Assembly (NCBI RefSeq): GCF_030506285.1
Contig: NZ_CP119422.1
Coordinates: 2,790,001-2,854,000 of the forward strand
DNA from: Catalinimonas niigatensis
GTDB taxonomy: Bacteria > Bacteroidota > Bacteroidia > Cytophagales > Cyclobacteriaceae
DNA length: 64,000 nucleotides
Direction of reading: 5' to 3'
Every line of letters begins with the position of its first letter. Within the stretch, counting starts at the first letter, position 1. A program made the translations under genes and the position numbers. The notes under the pieces were generated by a model. That model did no database searches and was not told the DNA's origin. It saw only the letters and a program-made list of their open reading frames with translations. This document shows positions 24,942 to 30,404 of this stretch, one piece after another.

Positions 24942-25694
24942 ATGCCTTTCATTACCCCCAAACAGTCAGCATTCTTTCAGGCGCAGGGTTATCTGAAAAT
25001 TCCGCAGCTACTCAGCCCGGAGCAGCTCATTTATTACCGTGCCGTATACGAGGATTTCCTGGAAAACAGAATTGAGATCTCCCGCTACCGCTCTGATCTG
25101 GGAACGCATGCTGAAGAAGAAAAAGCAGAAGGTATCAAAGAACGAATTACTCAGATCATGGTGCCCAGCAAACTGGTCCCTGATTTACTGAATAAGCCTT
25201 TGCATCAGCAAAGCTTAGCAATAGCCCAATCTCTTTTGGGAGATGACATGGCGCTGGATTTTGATATGCTGATTGACAAAGCCCCTTTTTCCAATACCCC
25301 TACGCCCTGGCATCAGGATTGCGCCTACTGGATTGAGATGCCCGACCTCCGGGCAGTAAGCTGTTGGGTGGCTTTGGATAAGGCTAGCATTGACAACGGC
25401 TGTATGTGGTATGTACCCCAATCTCATCAGCTTCCCATGCGCCCTCATCGTCCGGCGGGTAAAGGAGGAGGAGCTTTGGAATGTGATGCTTCTGAGGAAG
25501 AAGGAGTGGCCGTTGAGCTTCAGGCGGGAGATTGTGTCCTGCATCAGGGAGGAACCTTGCACTACAGCCGGGGCAATACGACAGCCCATCGGCGCAGAGC
25601 TTTCATCACCAACTTCAGGCCACAGCAAATGATTGAACTGGAACGAGCGCAGGGATATGATCATACCGGAGAAAGGGAATTGAGAAGAAAATAG
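24942..25694 (+). CDS. phytanoyl-CoA dioxygenase (PhyH)-family oxygenase
   Basis: 250 residues from the ATG at 24942 (MPFITPKQSAFFQAQGYLKI); a TTG at 24921 extends it by 7 codons and overlaps the previous gene, which I think less likely. The Fe(II)/2-oxoglutarate facial triad is visible: His and Asp in PWHQDCAYW, second His in the QAGDCVLHQGGTLHYSRGN strand region, and the 2OG-binding Arg in HRRRAFITNF. The family hydroxylates diverse substrates; the substrate here is unknown. Coexpressed with the hydrolase upstream. Confidence 0.85.
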   Translation: MPFITPKQSAFFQAQGYLKIPQLLSPEQLIYYRAVYEDFLENRIEISRYRSDLGTHAEEEKAEGIKERITQIMVPSKLVPDLLNKPLHQQSLAIAQSLLGDDMALDFDMLIDKAPFSNTPTPWHQDCAYWIEMPDLRAVSCWVALDKASIDNGCMWYVPQSHQLPMRPHRPAGKGGGALECDASEEEGVAVELQAGDCVLHQGGTLHYSRGNTTAHRRRAFITNFRPQQMIELERAQGYDHTGERELRRK

Positions 25695-25770
25695 CCCAAT
25701 AAGGTGTTGATAATCAGCGGATACCTATTAAATACTTTTTCTTTCCACAGATTTTTTTACCTTGCATACA

Positions 25771-25848
25771 TCATTGGGGTGCTTGACAAAAGTCCGGCTG
25801 AGATTATACCCATGACCTGATCTGGATAATACCAGCGTAGGAAATGAC
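25771..25848 (+). promoter_or_regulatory. TPP riboswitch (thi box)
   Basis: The thi-box core is clear: GGGGTGC (25776-25782), CTGAGA (25798-25803) with TATACCC following, the highly conserved ACCTGATCTGGATAATACCA, and GCGTAGG-AAATG to 25846. The closing P1 helix is TCATT (25771-25775) with AATGA (25843-25847). The aptamer binds thiamine pyrophosphate. It lies 80 bp upstream of the methyltransferase gene and directly ahead of a terminator hairpin, so the switch turns the whole downstream operon off when TPP is plentiful. Confidence 0.95.
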
Positions 25849-25873
25849 TTTATTAGCTAATCACTGACTAATT

Positions 25874-25909
25874 GCCATTGCCTGTCTGATCCGGGTCGTG
25901 GCTTTTTTT
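25874..25909 (+). terminator. riboswitch-controlled transcription attenuator
   Basis: GCCA (25874-25877) and CCTG (25881-25884) pair with CGGG (25892-25895) and TGGC (25899-25902), followed by seven T (25903-25909). Together with the TPP aptamer 26 bp upstream it forms the expression platform. The gene starts 19 bp later. Confidence 0.75.
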
Positions 25910-25927
25910 ATTTCTAAATGATTAGCG

Positions 25928-26656
25928 ATGAGTACAGAAATAGAACAGAAGAAATTTGACCTTGTCACCCAGGATCTACGGCAGTGGCAGGGACGCGAAG
26001 AATGGTTTTTTAATCGTGAGCATACCGATACCTACGAACTTTGGTACGAAGGGCGCTACAAACGCGCCGAGATCTGGCAGAAGAAAGTCATTGGGCAACT
26101 GATCAAAAAGGATGAACGGGTGAAAACCCTGCTGGAGTTTGGCTGCGGTACCACCCGCTTCACCCGCTGGTGGCATGAGATCGGGATAGAAGCCAGCGGT
26201 GGCGACATCTCTCCTTTTATGCTGGGGCAAGGCGCCCATCTCTTTGACGGCGATCTGGTGCTGGCCGATTCTCACCACATGCCCTTCAAGGACCACACTT
26301 TTGACGCCCTGGCATTTATCACCACTTTTGAATACTACAAAGATCCGGTGAAAGTGATTCGGGAAGCCGTACGGGTGGGCAAATACGGTATTGTGTTCGG
26401 TATGATGAACCGCAACTCGCCCAAAGTAGCTCGCCGAAGAATACAGGAGATGTTTGGTAAAAATCCATTTTACGTTACCGCTACTTTCTATACGCCTAAA
26501 AAGTTGATGGCAATCATTGAGGAAGCTTTGAAAGGCAGAGATTATACCATTGAGTGGACGACTACCGGCCTGCCCAAATGGTTTCCGGTACAGCAATGGG
26601 GCTTGCCTTATGGCGATTTCTTTGGATTGCATGTACGTCTAAACGATGTGGAATGA
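25928..26656 (+). CDS. class I SAM-dependent methyltransferase under TPP control
   Basis: 242 residues. The SAM-binding motif I is LLEFGCGTTRFTRWW (about 68-82), motif II is around GGDISPFML, and motif III follows the acidic LADSHHMPFKDHTFDALAF (methyltransferase-11 type). A helical cap with Trp/Tyr residues (YYKDPVKVIREAV) follows. The substrate is unknown. It is the first gene after a TPP riboswitch, and its stop overlaps the next start (ATGA at 26653-26656), so the two products are made together. No thiamine enzyme of this kind is standard. Confidence 0.88.
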   Translation: MSTEIEQKKFDLVTQDLRQWQGREEWFFNREHTDTYELWYEGRYKRAEIWQKKVIGQLIKKDERVKTLLEFGCGTTRFTRWWHEIGIEASGGDISPFMLGQGAHLFDGDLVLADSHHMPFKDHTFDALAFITTFEYYKDPVKVIREAVRVGKYGIVFGMMNRNSPKVARRRIQEMFGKNPFYVTATFYTPKKLMAIIEEALKGRDYTIEWTTTGLPKWFPVQQWGLPYGDFFGLHVRLNDVE

Positions 26657-27717
26657 GTGCGTTTGAAGACAATTCCGGCAAGATCAACAGTAGTGCGTTC
26701 AAAGAAATACTGCTGCCCTATAATGGCTATCCCAGAAATGAAGTGCTGGTCGGGCCAAAGTATGGCGTAGATACCTCCGTCATTGATCTGGGCAACGGCT
26801 TAGGCATGGCGGTGTCCAGCGATCCGCTTTCGCTCATTCCGTCTTTGGGGCTGAAAGAATCAGCCTGGCTGTCGGTGCATCTGCTGGCCAATGATATGGC
26901 GACTACCGGCTTTGCACCTATGTATGCACAATTTGTGCTGAATCTGCCAACCAGTCTTTCGCAACAAGCTTTTCAGGAATACTGGCAGCACATCCATACA
27001 TTTTGTGAACAGATTGGTGTGCATATTACTGGCGGCCATACCGGACAGATTAAAGGGCAGAACTCCACCATTTCCGGCGGAGGTACCATGTTTTTGACGG
27101 CTCCGCTGGACAAAATTATCAACAGCCATCAGGCGCAGCCGGGTGATCTGATTGTGGTGACCAAAGAAACGGCGCTGAATTCTTCCTCCATTCTGGCCAT
27201 GAGTTTTCCCGAAACGGTAGAGAATAAGTTAGGCAAAGAAGTCTACCAAACTGCCTGCGAGAACTTCTACCGGACTTCATCCTTACCCGACGCACTGGCA
27301 GCGGTAGAAGTGCTTGAACCAAATACCGAGCTCAAAGCCATGCATGATGTGACCGAAGGTGGCGTGGTTGGAGCCATCTGTGAAATGGCTGCTGCCTCCG
27401 GTTGTGGTTTTATTTTGCATAACGATAAACTTCCCGTAGGCGAAGCACCTTATCGGATTACCCGATTGTTTGAGATTGACCATCGCTACTGCATAGGCGC
27501 CGGCTCCATGATCATGGCAGTAAAAAAAGGAAAAGAACAGGCACTGGTTAATCATCTGGAGTCAAAATCCATACCTGCCAGCATTGTAGGAGAGATGACA
27601 GAGGCACAGCAGGGTTTCAGGATGATAGAAAATGATGAAGAGAAAATCATCTCTTTTGACGGAAATGACCCTTACTGGGGCGCATTTTTTAAAGCATTGA
27701 AAAACGGATGGAAATAG
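26653..27717 (+). CDS. AIR-synthase/HypE-like (PurM-superfamily) protein in a TPP-regulated operon
   Basis: 354 residues from the ATG at 26653 (MSAFEDNSGKINSSAFKEIL); longer frames that overlap the methyltransferase are not needed. The N-terminal domain has GPKYGVDTSVIDLGNG and SDPLSLIPSLG, and the second domain starts near DAVGLCT-equivalent GHTGQIKGQNSTISGGGTMF. HypE, PurM and ThiL (thiamine-phosphate kinase) all belong to this superfamily; overall the sequence looks closer to HypE-related proteins than to ThiL. With no hydrogenase genes nearby, a role in thiamine metabolism is inferred from the riboswitch, not from sequence. Confidence 0.8.
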   Translation: MSAFEDNSGKINSSAFKEILLPYNGYPRNEVLVGPKYGVDTSVIDLGNGLGMAVSSDPLSLIPSLGLKESAWLSVHLLANDMATTGFAPMYAQFVLNLPTSLSQQAFQEYWQHIHTFCEQIGVHITGGHTGQIKGQNSTISGGGTMFLTAPLDKIINSHQAQPGDLIVVTKETALNSSSILAMSFPETVENKLGKEVYQTACENFYRTSSLPDALAAVEVLEPNTELKAMHDVTEGGVVGAICEMAAASGCGFILHNDKLPVGEAPYRITRLFEIDHRYCIGAGSMIMAVKKGKEQALVNHLESKSIPASIVGEMTEAQQGFRMIENDEEKIISFDGNDPYWGAFFKALKNGWK

Positions 27718-27810
27718 TATGATAGTGTTATGCCCCCCGCGGTACGATGGTGTTATAGTCGATATTGATTACGCACTTAGCTTCAAACCATAACACCATC
27801 GCACCCTAAC
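27716..27810. repeat. octamer-unit inverted arms upstream of the ThiE-like gene
   Basis: The left arm (about 27720-27759) reads, on the minus strand, ACTAT, AACACCAT, CGTACC and later AACACTAT. The right arm (27788-27810) reads ACCAT, AACACCAT, CGCACCCT, AACCCC. The same octamers occur at 15511-15546 and 61898-61990. The right arm ends 11 bp before the start codon. It separates the HypE-like and ThiE-like genes by 104 bp, an unusual gap inside the operon. Confidence 0.6.
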
Positions 27811-27821
27811 CCCAAGAAAAA

Positions 27822-28463
27822 ATGGATAGAAAAATAAAAGGAGGAGTTTATCTGGTCATAGACCCGGCGATGGAAGAAAAAACGCTATTGAAAAAAGTAG
27901 AGTTGGCTTTAGAAGGAGGTGTGCAGGTATTACAAATCTGGAATCACTGGCCGAAGCATTTTGCATTAGCAGATAAAAAGAAATTGATAGAAGCCATACT
28001 CAAAATTAGTACACAGTACAATACTCCTACTTTGATCAATGAAGAGTGGGAATTGCTTAAGCACACGGCTTTAGAGGGTGTTCATTTTGACAGCATTCCT
28101 GAAAATTACCAGGCTATCAAAAAAGAGATTGGCAGGCCATTCCTTAGTGGAATTACCTGTAGCAATGACCTGGCAGTGATTGAGTGGGCCGAGCAAAATG
28201 ACTTTGATTATGTGTCTTTCTGCTCCATGTTCCCTTCCAGTTCGGTAGATAGCTGTGAGATTGTGAGGCCGGAAACTGTGAAAAAAGCCAGAGACATCAC
28301 CCAAATGCCACTCTTTCTTTCGGGAGGAATCACTACGGGAAACCTGGCGACTTTCAAAGAGCTGGATTTCAATGGCATAGCGGTAATATCGGGGATTCTA
28401 AGTTCCGATTCTCCCAAACATTCCGCTACTGCTTACCAAAACGCATTACAAACGATTAAATAA
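27822..28463 (+). CDS. ThiE-like TIM-barrel protein with a changed active site
   Basis: 213 residues, the normal thiamine-phosphate synthase length. The overall ThiE pattern is seen: VLQIWN at the Q-L-R-x-K position, TLINEEW at the N-D-R position, EGVHFDSIPEN at G-V-H-L-G-Q, SGITCSN at I-G-x-S, DYVSFCSMFPSSSVDS at the D-Y-x-x-x-G-P-x-x-x-T loop, LSGGIT at the A-I-G-G-I phosphate site and VISGIL at the end. However, the Arg and Lys that bind pyrophosphate, and the Asp-Arg pair, are missing. It is a ThiE paralogue with an altered substrate or a pseudoenzyme. Third gene of the riboswitch operon. Confidence 0.82.
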   Translation: MDRKIKGGVYLVIDPAMEEKTLLKKVELALEGGVQVLQIWNHWPKHFALADKKKLIEAILKISTQYNTPTLINEEWELLKHTALEGVHFDSIPENYQAIKKEIGRPFLSGITCSNDLAVIEWAEQNDFDYVSFCSMFPSSSVDSCEIVRPETVKKARDITQMPLFLSGGITTGNLATFKELDFNGIAVISGILSSDSPKHSATAYQNALQTIK

Positions 28464-28471
28464 ACAAACTT

Positions 28472-28738
28472 ATGAATACGTCATTGTTGAAAAAACTTTG
28501 CTGTCCTATAGATAAAGCTGATCTTATTCTTCAGGTCTTTTTAAAAGATGAAAACGGAGAGATCATTGAGGGGCTACTGACTTGCCCTGATTGTCAAAGA
28601 TATTATCCTATCGTGTACGGTATCCCTATCATGACACCGGATGAGTACCGGGAAAAAGCATTAGAAGCTCCAATCCTGGAAAAGTGGGGACTTAAGCTAG
28701 CGCAGGATAATGCTAAAATGTTGCTGCTGAAGGAGTAA
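28472..28738 (+). CDS. Trm112-like small zinc-binding protein
   Basis: 88 residues, the usual Trm112 length. The zinc knuckle cysteines are C9/C10 in LCCPIDK and a CPDC pair in LTCPDCQRYYPIVYGIPIM, followed by the characteristic YPIxxGIPxM strand. In eukaryotes and archaea Trm112 is the obligate activator of several SAM-dependent methyltransferases; bacterial homologues (YcaR type) are less studied. It starts 8 bp after the ThiE-like gene, ending an operon whose first gene is a methyltransferase, so a partnership with that enzyme is a reasonable inference. Confidence 0.82.
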   Translation: MNTSLLKKLCCPIDKADLILQVFLKDENGEIIEGLLTCPDCQRYYPIVYGIPIMTPDEYREKALEAPILEKWGLKLAQDNAKMLLLKE

Positions 28739-28978
28739 GTAATTTTTTAGTATTTTATAACAAAGAATTCACATATAAGTATACCATACCCGCAAAAAAA
28801 CCTTAGCTTTGTGTCATTATGAAGTTAAGACTCACCATATAATTATGGGAGCACAGTCTCCCTCCATTCTCTGAACTGGCAATGCTGATACTTATTCTTT
28901 ACTGATAAGGCTATTGCTATTCGTCTGATTCTTTACCGTACTTTCTTAGAAGGTTTTACAAAGGTTTTTTTAAGCTCG

Positions 28979-29012: not shown

Positions 29013-30404
29013 ATGCGGGTTACAAAATTACTATATCATTTCAGACACGCCCTGGAGGGCGATTACGATAAGTATACTTCCGGAAGTATCAGGAAGGCTA
29101 TTTTCTATCTGGCAGTACCCATGATTCTGGAGATGATCATGGAGTCTTTGTTTGCCATTGTAGACATCTTTTTTGTTGGCAGACTTGGCGTCAATGCAGT
29201 AGCCACCGTAGGCCTGACCGAGTCGGTGGTGACCATTGTGTACTCCATCGGCATAGGCTTCAGTATGGCAGCTACGGCGGTCATTTCTCGAAGAGTGGGC
29301 GAAAAACGCCTTGACAAGGCAGCATCTGCGGCTTTCCAGGTCATATTGCTGGGTGCTATCTTCTCTCTGCTTATTAGTATTTCAGGTTACATCTATGGGG
29401 GTGAAGTACTGGCATTGATGGGAGCGAGTGAAGGTATATTGCAAGAAGGCACGAGATATACTCAGATTATCTTTGCGGGAAACATCAGCATCATGCTGCT
29501 CTTTATCATCAATGGTGCCTTCCGTGGAGCAGGCAACGCTGCCATTGCCATGCGTACCCTTTGGATTGCCAACGGTATCAATATCTTCCTGGACCCCTTG
29601 CTCATATTTGGATTATGGATCATACCGGGGATGGGCATTGAGGGTGCGGCATGGGCCACTACCATCGGCCGGAGCATTGGGGTATTTTACCAGCTATATC
29701 ATTTGGTGAAAGGCAGTACCCGTATCAAACTGGACCGGCAAGCGATCAAACTGAGGTGGAAGACAGTGCTCAATATCATCAAAGTGTCTTCCGGGGGTAT
29801 GGGTCAGTTTCTGATTGACTCCGCCAGCTGGATATTTCTGACACGTATTGTCTCCGAGTTTGGTAGTGTGGCACTGGCAGGTTATACCATTGCCTTCAGA
29901 ATTGTGATGTTTACCCTATTACCGGCTTGGGGGCTTTCCAATGCTGCAGCGACTATGGTGGGGCAAAATCTGGGTGCAAAATTTCCTGACAGGGCAGAGA
30001 AGGCTGTCTGGTACACGGCTAAGTACAATGTCTACTTTCTGGGTGTAGTCTCACTTGTGTTTTTATTCACCGCTGATATTTTCGTAGGCTGGTTTTCTCC
30101 TGAAGCAGAAGTGGTAAACGCTGGCGCAACTGCTTTGAAAATCTTTTGTCTGGGATACATCTTTTTCGCCTTCGGGATGGTCATCGTGCAGGCATTTAAC
30201 GGAGCCGGTGATACCCGTACCCCTACTTTTATCAACATGGGCGTACTGTGGGTATTACAGCTGCCCCTGGCGTATCTGCTGGCGATTCAATATGACTTAG
30301 GCGCTTTGGGGGTATACATCACCATTGCGATCAGCCATTCATTGCATGCACTGGTAAGCCTGTGGATTTTCAAGAAAGGTAAATGGAAGGAGATGAAAGT
30401 GTAA
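29013..30404 (+). CDS. MATE-family efflux transporter
   Basis: 463 residues with about 12 hydrophobic segments, the standard MATE topology of two six-helix bundles. Landmarks: MESLFAIVDIFFVGRLG in helix 2 and AGNAAIAMRTLWIANGINI near helix 5-6, matched in the second half by GAGDTRTPTFINMG. MATE proteins export organic cations, toxins or metabolites using Na+ or H+ gradients. It follows the riboswitch operon after 274 bp and has its own promoter motif, so cotranscription is not required; whether it carries a thiamine-related compound is unknown. Confidence 0.92.
   Translation: MRVTKLLYHFRHALEGDYDKYTSGSIRKAIFYLAVPMILEMIMESLFAIVDIFFVGRLGVNAVATVGLTESVVTIVYSIGIGFSMAATAVISRRVGEKRLDKAASAAFQVILLGAIFSLLISISGYIYGGEVLALMGASEGILQEGTRYTQIIFAGNISIMLLFIINGAFRGAGNAAIAMRTLWIANGINIFLDPLLIFGLWIIPGMGIEGAAWATTIGRSIGVFYQLYHLVKGSTRIKLDRQAIKLRWKTVLNIIKVSSGGMGQFLIDSASWIFLTRIVSEFGSVALAGYTIAFRIVMFTLLPAWGLSNAAATMVGQNLGAKFPDRAEKAVWYTAKYNVYFLGVVSLVFLFTADIFVGWFSPEAEVVNAGATALKIFCLGYIFFAFGMVIVQAFNGAGDTRTPTFINMGVLWVLQLPLAYLLAIQYDLGALGVYITIAISHSLHALVSLWIFKKGKWKEMKV

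Follow-up and report, generated by a model that had tools for sequence, protein, structure and literature searches.

Which part of vitamin B1 metabolism is served by a set of genes that follows a thiamine pyrophosphate (TPP) riboswitch and belongs to no known thiamine operon? The question is raised by a four-gene operon of Catalinimonas niigatensis. We analysed a window of 64,000 nucleotides, positions 2,790,001-2,854,000 of the 7.13-Mb single-contig genome (G000); positions below are those of the window unless otherwise stated. The operon encodes a methyltransferase (MT), an ATPase of the AIR synthase fold (AIRS-like), a ThiE-like protein and a Trm112-type protein. Judged from its sequence and that of its relatives, it is a conserved four-gene set behind a TPP riboswitch, and is not thiL, not canonical ThiE and not a known thiamine operon. 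A first-pass annotation of the same DNA had called the combination unfamiliar. This still holds, as no matching thiamine pathway was identified, and literature searches of limited coverage yielded no published description of the four-gene module that we recognised.

The TPP riboswitch and the four-gene operon

The aptamer (25765-25860, plus strand) matched the Rfam covariance model RF00059 over its complete length (model positions 1-105) with 65.1 bits, against a cut-off of 54.3, and was the sole Rfam match above cut-off within the window. It is followed by a hairpin (25874-25902) and a run of seven U, together a probable intrinsic terminator (25874-25909, plus strand) compatible with an attenuator. 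The predicted folding energy of the hairpin was −13.8 kcal/mol (z −2.65), and 3 of 200 shuffled sequences folded equally well. A hairpin and T run between the aptamer and the MT gene were visible by eye in several relatives, but not in all. Counting against the attenuator call, a simple terminator scan of 25600-28900 was no better than chance (3 found, 3.3 expected).

The four genes lie on the plus strand. The first encodes a class I S-adenosylmethionine (SAM)-dependent methyltransferase of 242 amino acids (25928-26656), and its stop codon is overlapped by the start of the gene for the AIRS-like ATPase of the AIR synthase/HypE/ThiL fold (354 amino acids, 26653-27717). A TIM barrel of the TMP-TENI family (ThiE-like, 213 amino acids, 27822-28463) and the Trm112-type methyltransferase partner (88 amino acids, 28472-28738) complete the set. 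All four proteins passed Pfam cut-offs: MT with Methyltransf_11 (55.9 bits, cut-off 21.2), the AIRS-like protein with AIRS_C (75.4, cut-off 23.1) and AIRS (43.2, cut-off 24), the ThiE-like protein with TMP-TENI (95.6, cut-off 27) and the Trm112-like protein with Trm112p (32.3, cut-off 22). None of the four reached the cut-off of a curated NCBIfam profile, and ThiC, ThiG, ThiD, TenA, TPK and canonical ThiE were not found among them with the Pfam and NCBIfam families. Rfam, the open reading frames, Pfam and the folding analysis thus confirmed the aptamer, the four genes and the likely terminator where the first-pass annotation had placed them.

We searched 146 genomes (C. niigatensis and relatives) for the AIRS-like protein and obtained 17 clear orthologues including the query genome's own (E 5.6e-103 or better, 47-100% identity), separated by a gap from paralogues with 20-29% identity. 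Gene order was compared in 96 loci, made up of 16 fetched neighbourhoods and 80 loci from a contig scan with an MT alignment (the best 80 of 227). Seven operons entered through both sources, which leaves no more than 89 distinct loci. The order MT, AIRS-like, ThiE-like, Trm112 was complete in 93 loci, and the other three (L044, L069 and L107) run off a contig edge. Open reading frames of 51-75 amino acids, called mechanically between the genes in a few loci, were not scored as genes. Since the loci were picked through the AIRS-like or MT gene, a ThiE-like or Trm112 gene split off elsewhere would be invisible in this count. In a separate draw of genomes from the phylum, MT was present in 13 of 385, a patchy distribution, and the order was kept in all ten loci examined; two of these (G360 and G463) repeat L068 and L114, leaving eight new ones. 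One locus (L188) has a gap of ~530 bases ahead of the Trm112 gene.

Rfam and a pattern scan together detected a TPP riboswitch ahead of the operon in 95 of the 96 loci. Rfam scored the aptamer above cut-off in 15 of the 16 fetched neighbourhoods, L041 being the exception, and in 10/10 of the next set scanned. The pattern scan located an upstream aptamer for 91 of the 96 loci; among its five misses, L055, L073, L090 and L095 passed Rfam, L073 barely (54.5 against 54.3 bits). The pattern, composed after the aligned aptamers had been viewed, gave 91 matches in 2.4 Mb with both strands counted. Nine of the ten loci from the phylum draw, two of which repeat earlier operons, were above the Rfam cut-off, and L174 was below it at 47.8 bits. 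Riboswitch and operon occur together far more often than chance would allow. The proposal that the set is tied to its TPP switch, which was to be given up if the gene order proved not to be conserved beside such switches in other genomes, therefore survived this comparison. The conserved order and the upstream riboswitch together point to a conserved, TPP-controlled, thiamine-linked module. An earlier paper also places unnamed genes of unknown function behind thiamine riboswitches (PMC2211319). In L041, same-strand genes stand ahead of the operon.

The best 80 of the 227 related loci carry names placed in Bacteroidota, with hosts such as Nafulsella, Pontibacter, Algoriphagus, Cyclobacterium, Chryseobacterium, Arenibacter, Runella, Chitinophaga and metagenome-assembled genomes (MAGs) of Balneolaceae; names are known for these 80, which leaves room for hosts in other phyla. 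MT of Pontibacter, a different genus, is 88-90% identical to that of the window, against 74-81% in nine of twelve module genomes of the window's own family, values that would fit horizontal spread. One contig of Arenibacter sp. F26102 carries two whole operons (L097 and L103), separated by ~32 kb and each preceded by a separate TPP riboswitch.

A fifth conserved gene of the operon was sought and rejected, as no gene recurs broadly downstream. Local recurrences were seen: a gene for 331-335 amino acids trails the operon in six Chryseobacterium loci, and a pair of genes for 597 and 439-441 amino acids lies 1-7 bases after it in L043, L091, L108 and L112 (L043 and L091 are the same operon). The hosts of the pair are Ohtaekwangia, Flammeovirgaceae UBA5867 and a Chitinophaga MAG, and the pair may be a shared, possibly transferred block. 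In the window, a MATE-family transporter gene (29013-30404, 198 bits) lies 274 bases past the operon, and it is also present in G001 with 94% identity. The 104-base gap between the AIRS-like and ThiE-like genes contains an imperfect inverted repeat with 19-nucleotide arms (27741-27805), whose 12-base core has no second copy in the window even when one mismatch is tolerated; this repeat is probably outside the function of the operon.

The four proteins and their known relatives

The predicted structure of the ThiE-like protein was confident (predicted local distance difference test score, pLDDT, 94.5). Its best solved structural matches in Foldseek were those of Bacillus subtilis ThiE (E 2.3e-14, TM 0.85), followed by TenI. 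The NCBIfam equivalog of ThiE, TIGR00693, scored only 91.6 bits against a cut-off of 145.1. We aligned 16 operon proteins with B. subtilis ThiE and seven TMP-TENI proteins of relatives, namely one TenI-like protein and six canonical ThiE rows (five distinct proteins, as L050 and L164 are one gene). Q57, H107, G188 and S209 were retained in all 16 operon proteins, as was S or T at positions 130, 156 and 158. In the same 16, position 59 is W, 61 is H or N, 93 is E or N, 112 is P, C or a gap, and 159 is not K, whereas the canonical rows retain R59, K61, D93, D112 and K159. We take these five residues, with their numbering and roles in ThiE, to be the Mg/pyrophosphate site. On this assignment, the pyrophosphate/magnesium site appears to be gone and the thiazole-phosphate side to be kept. 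D at 109, N at 133 and C at 151 are new and invariant in the 16, and C134 and C145 are invariant as well; by eye, the exception among ten further operon proteins was L181, with G instead of D at 109.

With the pyrophosphate-site residues changed, the ThiE-like protein should not make thiamine phosphate (TMP) from hydroxymethylpyrimidine (HMP) pyrophosphate. It shares with the ThiE family (TIGR00693; B. subtilis 2tps/1g67) the fold, the thiazole-phosphate-side S/T at 130, 156 and 158, G188 and S209, but differs in its score below the family cut-off, in the five site residues, in a new invariant Trp and two Cys, and in its setting, as no ThiD was found in 15 of the 17 genomes with the operon (module genomes). 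A role as plain TMP synthase was rejected on the changed residues and the missing ThiD. TenI, the thiazole tautomerase (1yad, 3qh2), is the second-best structural match and shares the fold, but the protein reached only 44.5 bits with NF005819 (cut-off 251), a weaker match than that to ThiE. A real ThiG went undetected in 15 of the 17 module genomes, which therefore have no known TenI-type substrate to tautomerise. A TMP-TENI hit in G047 (104 bits), a candidate for a ThiE-like gene standing by itself, was rejected, as it scored 14.5 bits with the operon profile.

The AIRS-like model was likewise confident (pLDDT 89.7). The nearest structure was that of HypE, SelD and ThiL following closely, and a profile search against solved structures also ranked HypE first. 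Among NCBIfam profiles it scored 71.2 bits with thiL (cut-off 184.15), 70.3 with hypE (251.6) and 56.3 with selD (125). It shares its whole fold with the HypE/SelD/ThiL/PurM superfamily and lies below all three of these cut-offs. HypE has a C-terminal Cys that becomes carbamoylated, and this residue is absent in 17/17 AIRS-like proteins. PurM, HypE and SelD spend ATP to phosphorylate or cyclise a substrate. The first-pass annotation had suggested a ThiL-type step that might replace thiL. This was not borne out, as canonical ThiL was above cut-off in 136 of the 146 genomes, and C. niigatensis has it as a separate gene with 315 bits; the AIRS-like protein does not replace it.

In a plasmid collection, 38 records matched the AIRS-like protein, the best being haloarchaeal proteins of an 'AIR synthase family' (~31% identity, E 2e-49). 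We opened seven of the 38. In 3/3 Haloarcula records (plasmids L134, L139 and L141), the AIR synthase gene adjoins genes for an MTH1187-type/'thiamine-binding' protein and a thiamine ABC substrate-binding protein, and is divergent from both. A thiamine role of this ATPase family in archaea is possible. An Acetoanaerobium record had no annotation around its match.

MT matched general SAM methyltransferases only in profile searches, with weak matches to structures of an 18S rRNA methyltransferase and RlmA. The SAM motif G72, C73, G74, T75 is invariant in the MT alignment, as are K166, R169 and R170. Mean column identity was 81% for MT, compared with 65% for the AIRS-like protein, 53% for the ThiE-like protein and 55% for Trm112. 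The Trm112-type protein is nearest to archaeal Trm112 (6zxw, E 9.5e-13; 6f5z, E 6.9e-10), while the best bacterial UPF0434 match had E 8.2e-4. It passed the Pfam family, and C11, C38 and C41 are invariant in 16 proteins. Like archaeal Trm112 with its methyltransferase partners, it belongs to the Trm112 family, but it fell below the cut-off of NCBIfam Trm112_arch (NF038101; 65.5 against 77 bits) and is encoded inside a TPP-controlled operon. The natural interpretation of this arrangement is that the protein would pair with the operon's own MT. Trm112 is best known for partners whose targets are RNA or release factors.

Thiamine genes and an importer-like locus in the same genomes

We also surveyed thiamine genes elsewhere in C. 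niigatensis and its relatives. ThiC, TenA and TPK of TIGR01378 were not found in C. niigatensis. Neither was ThiD, for which the hit was 41 bits to TIGR00097 (cut-off 204.95), nor a real ThiG, for which one 48-residue match gave 23.3 bits (Pfam cut-off 23), compared with 350-375 bits for real ThiG. The genome has two TMP-TENI matches; that of the operon (95.7 bits) is the only one of them among the matches listed, the lowest of which scores ~21 bits. TPK of TIGR01378 was present in 5 of the 146 genomes.

Only G011 and G064 among the 17 module genomes carry ThiC, ThiG, ThiD or canonical ThiE, and only G011 has TenA. 'Canonical' here means >150 bits for ThiE and at least 119 bits for ThiD, cut-offs chosen by eye at score gaps. 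Any of ThiC, ThiD, ThiE or TenA was present in 2/17 module genomes and 56/129 others (p=0.016, ignoring kinship and the five tests made). For canonical ThiE the counts were 2/17 and 53/129 (p=0.03), and the same for ThiD, again ignoring kinship and multiple testing. ThiC (2/17 and 39/129, p=0.15) and TenA (1/17 and 26/129, p=0.2) showed smaller differences, kinship again being ignored. A survey of 49 further module genomes found ThiC in 3, one of them by a partial match; the pooled value (5/66 against 39/129, p=2.4e-4) was not used as evidence, because the sets are unmatched by kinship. The anticorrelation of the module with canonical thiamine genes is suggestive only, since kinship and multiple testing are uncorrected.

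These counts bear on whether the operon replaces thiE or tenA. Replacement of thiE agrees with the rarity of canonical ThiE in module genomes, but the residues for HMP-pyrophosphate are missing and 15 of the 17 have no ThiD, so the ThiE-like protein is not a plain substitute. For TenA, the counts in module genomes are lower with p=0.2. Some relatives carry a TPP-controlled ThiE/ThiD/TenA cassette (for example, G115:C1 4.812-4.815 Mb), which resembles the operon in its TPP riboswitch, soluble enzymes and thiE-type member. Unlike the cassette, the operon has no ThiD, TenA or canonical ThiE, and both sets occur together only in G011 among the 17 module genomes.

A second TPP riboswitch of C. niigatensis heads genes for a TonB receptor and an NMT1/THI5-like protein, beside a PnuC-type transporter with a NadR-like kinase domain, and by its gene content this locus looks like a thiamine importer. 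We examined twenty further stretches around TPP switches, 7 from module genomes and 13 from genomes without the operon and without ThiC. A TonB receptor match lay at the TPP switch in 7/7 module genomes (8/8 with C. niigatensis, of the 17) and in 13/13 without the operon; PnuC-type and NadR-like genes were found in 4/8 and 7/13 stretches, respectively. As the importer-like locus occurs with and without the operon, the operon looks like an addition to import.

The NMT1/THI5-like protein (PF09084, 160 bits) is encoded at L003:4885-5829 on the minus strand (G000:C1 ~2,956,900-2,957,800), behind the TPP-controlled TonB receptor. By eye it has no signal peptide, and three tandem copies are present in G001 and two each in G026 and G072; it could bind or make a pyrimidine precursor. 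The PnuC-type transporter with the NadR-like kinase domain (L003:8419-9515, minus strand) stands beside the same locus. The presence of TPK in 5 and ThiL in 136 of the 146 genomes suggests that this domain is a NadR-like thiamine kinase.

Possible functions of the operon

From these sequence features, we tentatively favour, at a little under an even chance, an accessory thiamine module that is repressed by TPP and salvages or repairs a thiazole- or thiamine-type phosphate. TPP would switch the operon off through the aptamer and terminator, both seen in the sequence. Among the genomes searched, its hosts are mostly Bacteroidota that have an importer-like TonB locus and in which no route from HMP-pyrophosphate and thiazole phosphate to TMP was found. 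MT and Trm112 would form one SAM-dependent methyltransferase, the AIRS-like protein would use ATP to phosphorylate or cyclise a substrate, and the ThiE-like barrel would hold a thiazole-phosphate or TMP-sized compound and rearrange or join it without pyrophosphate chemistry. A damaged, cleaved or altered thiamine derivative may in this way return to the thiamine/TMP pool, from which ordinary ThiL would make TPP. Both the substrate and the sequence of reactions are conjectural; the ThiE-like barrel might, for example, hold a ring-opened thiamine phosphate whose ring would be closed by a PurM-like, ATP-driven reaction. We hold a broader proposal with more doubt: that MT-Trm112, the AIR-synthase-type ATPase and a ThiE barrel put to new use form a previously undescribed pathway, widespread but patchy in Bacteroidota, by which thiamine is regenerated or made with no need for HMP-pyrophosphate.

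Several observations weigh against salvage or repair. MT is far more conserved (72-97% identity in 16 relatives) than its three partners, which is odd for a small-molecule salvage enzyme. L041 (G129) is the only locus of the 96 in which neither Rfam nor the pattern scan recognised an upstream TPP riboswitch. The anticorrelation with canonical genes is modest, p=0.016 being the best of five tests and ThiC alone giving 0.15. The importer assignment comes from BLAST to one TonB receptor, with 23-43% identity in 5/8 loci, and PnuC-type and NadR-like genes adjoin the receptor in 4/8 module loci. As for the AIRS-like family, the thiamine neighbourhood of Haloarcula is confined to one genus; no thiamine neighbour was found near the Halobacterium and Haloferax relatives in the stretch examined; and an Acaryochloris relative lies near the hydrogenase genes hypA, hypB and hypC, pointing to a HypE role there.

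Among other explanations, the ThiE-like protein may be an alternative TMP or thiamine synthase that accepts a pyrimidine donor with a leaving group other than pyrophosphate, the donor being made by the AIRS-like protein and/or MT-Trm112 methylation. Such an enzyme would account for a ThiE fold that keeps the thiazole-phosphate side, Q57 and H107 while R59, K61, D93, D112 and K159 are changed, for the missing ThiD in 15/17 module genomes and for the anticorrelation with canonical ThiE. We consider it unlikely: the donor is purely hypothetical, and no pyrimidine or thiazole source is evident, ThiC and real ThiG being undetected in 15/17. It is less likely again that the operon turns TMP or thiazole phosphate into an analogue of thiamine or a secondary metabolite derived from it, acting as an antivitamin or a signal. 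A SAM methyltransferase in a TPP-controlled set does bring methoxythiamine-type antivitamins to mind, the distribution is patchy, and the MATE-family gene follows the operon in both the window and G001. Yet only 2 more of the 16 neighbourhoods have the MATE gene near the operon (L034 and, on the opposite strand, L045), few downstream genes recur among the neighbours identified, and the set has no nucleotide-hydroxymethylating enzyme. Slightly less probable still is that the operon builds thiamine, or one half of the molecule, de novo by an entirely new pathway. Such a pathway would agree with TPP control and with the frequent absence of ThiC and ThiG from the same genomes, but four genes are few, Pfam and NCBIfam detect no radical-SAM or sulfur-transfer enzyme in the set, and the importer-like locus persists in all eight module genomes examined.

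The partners of Trm112 suggest a different kind of substrate. MT-Trm112 might modify tRNA, rRNA or a protein, so that the set tunes translation or an enzyme to low TPP. The RNA and release-factor targets of known partners, the unusual conservation of MT with invariant K166, R169 and R170, and its weak matches to the rRNA methyltransferase structures all speak for this. We regard it as very unlikely, as the ThiE-like and AIRS-like proteins, equally inseparable in the loci examined, are left unexplained. The explanation that we find hardest to credit casts the AIRS-like protein as a kinase that turns thiamine into TMP, with the remaining three genes as passengers. The ThiL-like fold, the scarcity of TPK and the thiamine-protein neighbours in Haloarcula would suit such a kinase, but C. 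niigatensis already has a NadR-like kinase domain beside a PnuC-type gene, such pairs occur in 7/13 stretches without the operon, and the four genes remain together across loci.

How bacteria make and salvage thiamine is usually regarded as mostly settled, and genomes that lack ThiC, ThiG or ThiE are easily classed as import-only auxotrophs. A conserved, TPP-controlled set of four enzymes suggests that the B1 metabolism of such genomes is incompletely described. The four enzymes of the operon are uncharacterised, but their regulation gives a pointer to vitamin B1. With them, two questions become testable: whether there is a thiamine route that bypasses HMP-pyrophosphate, and which function a Trm112 of archaeal type has among bacterial vitamin genes.

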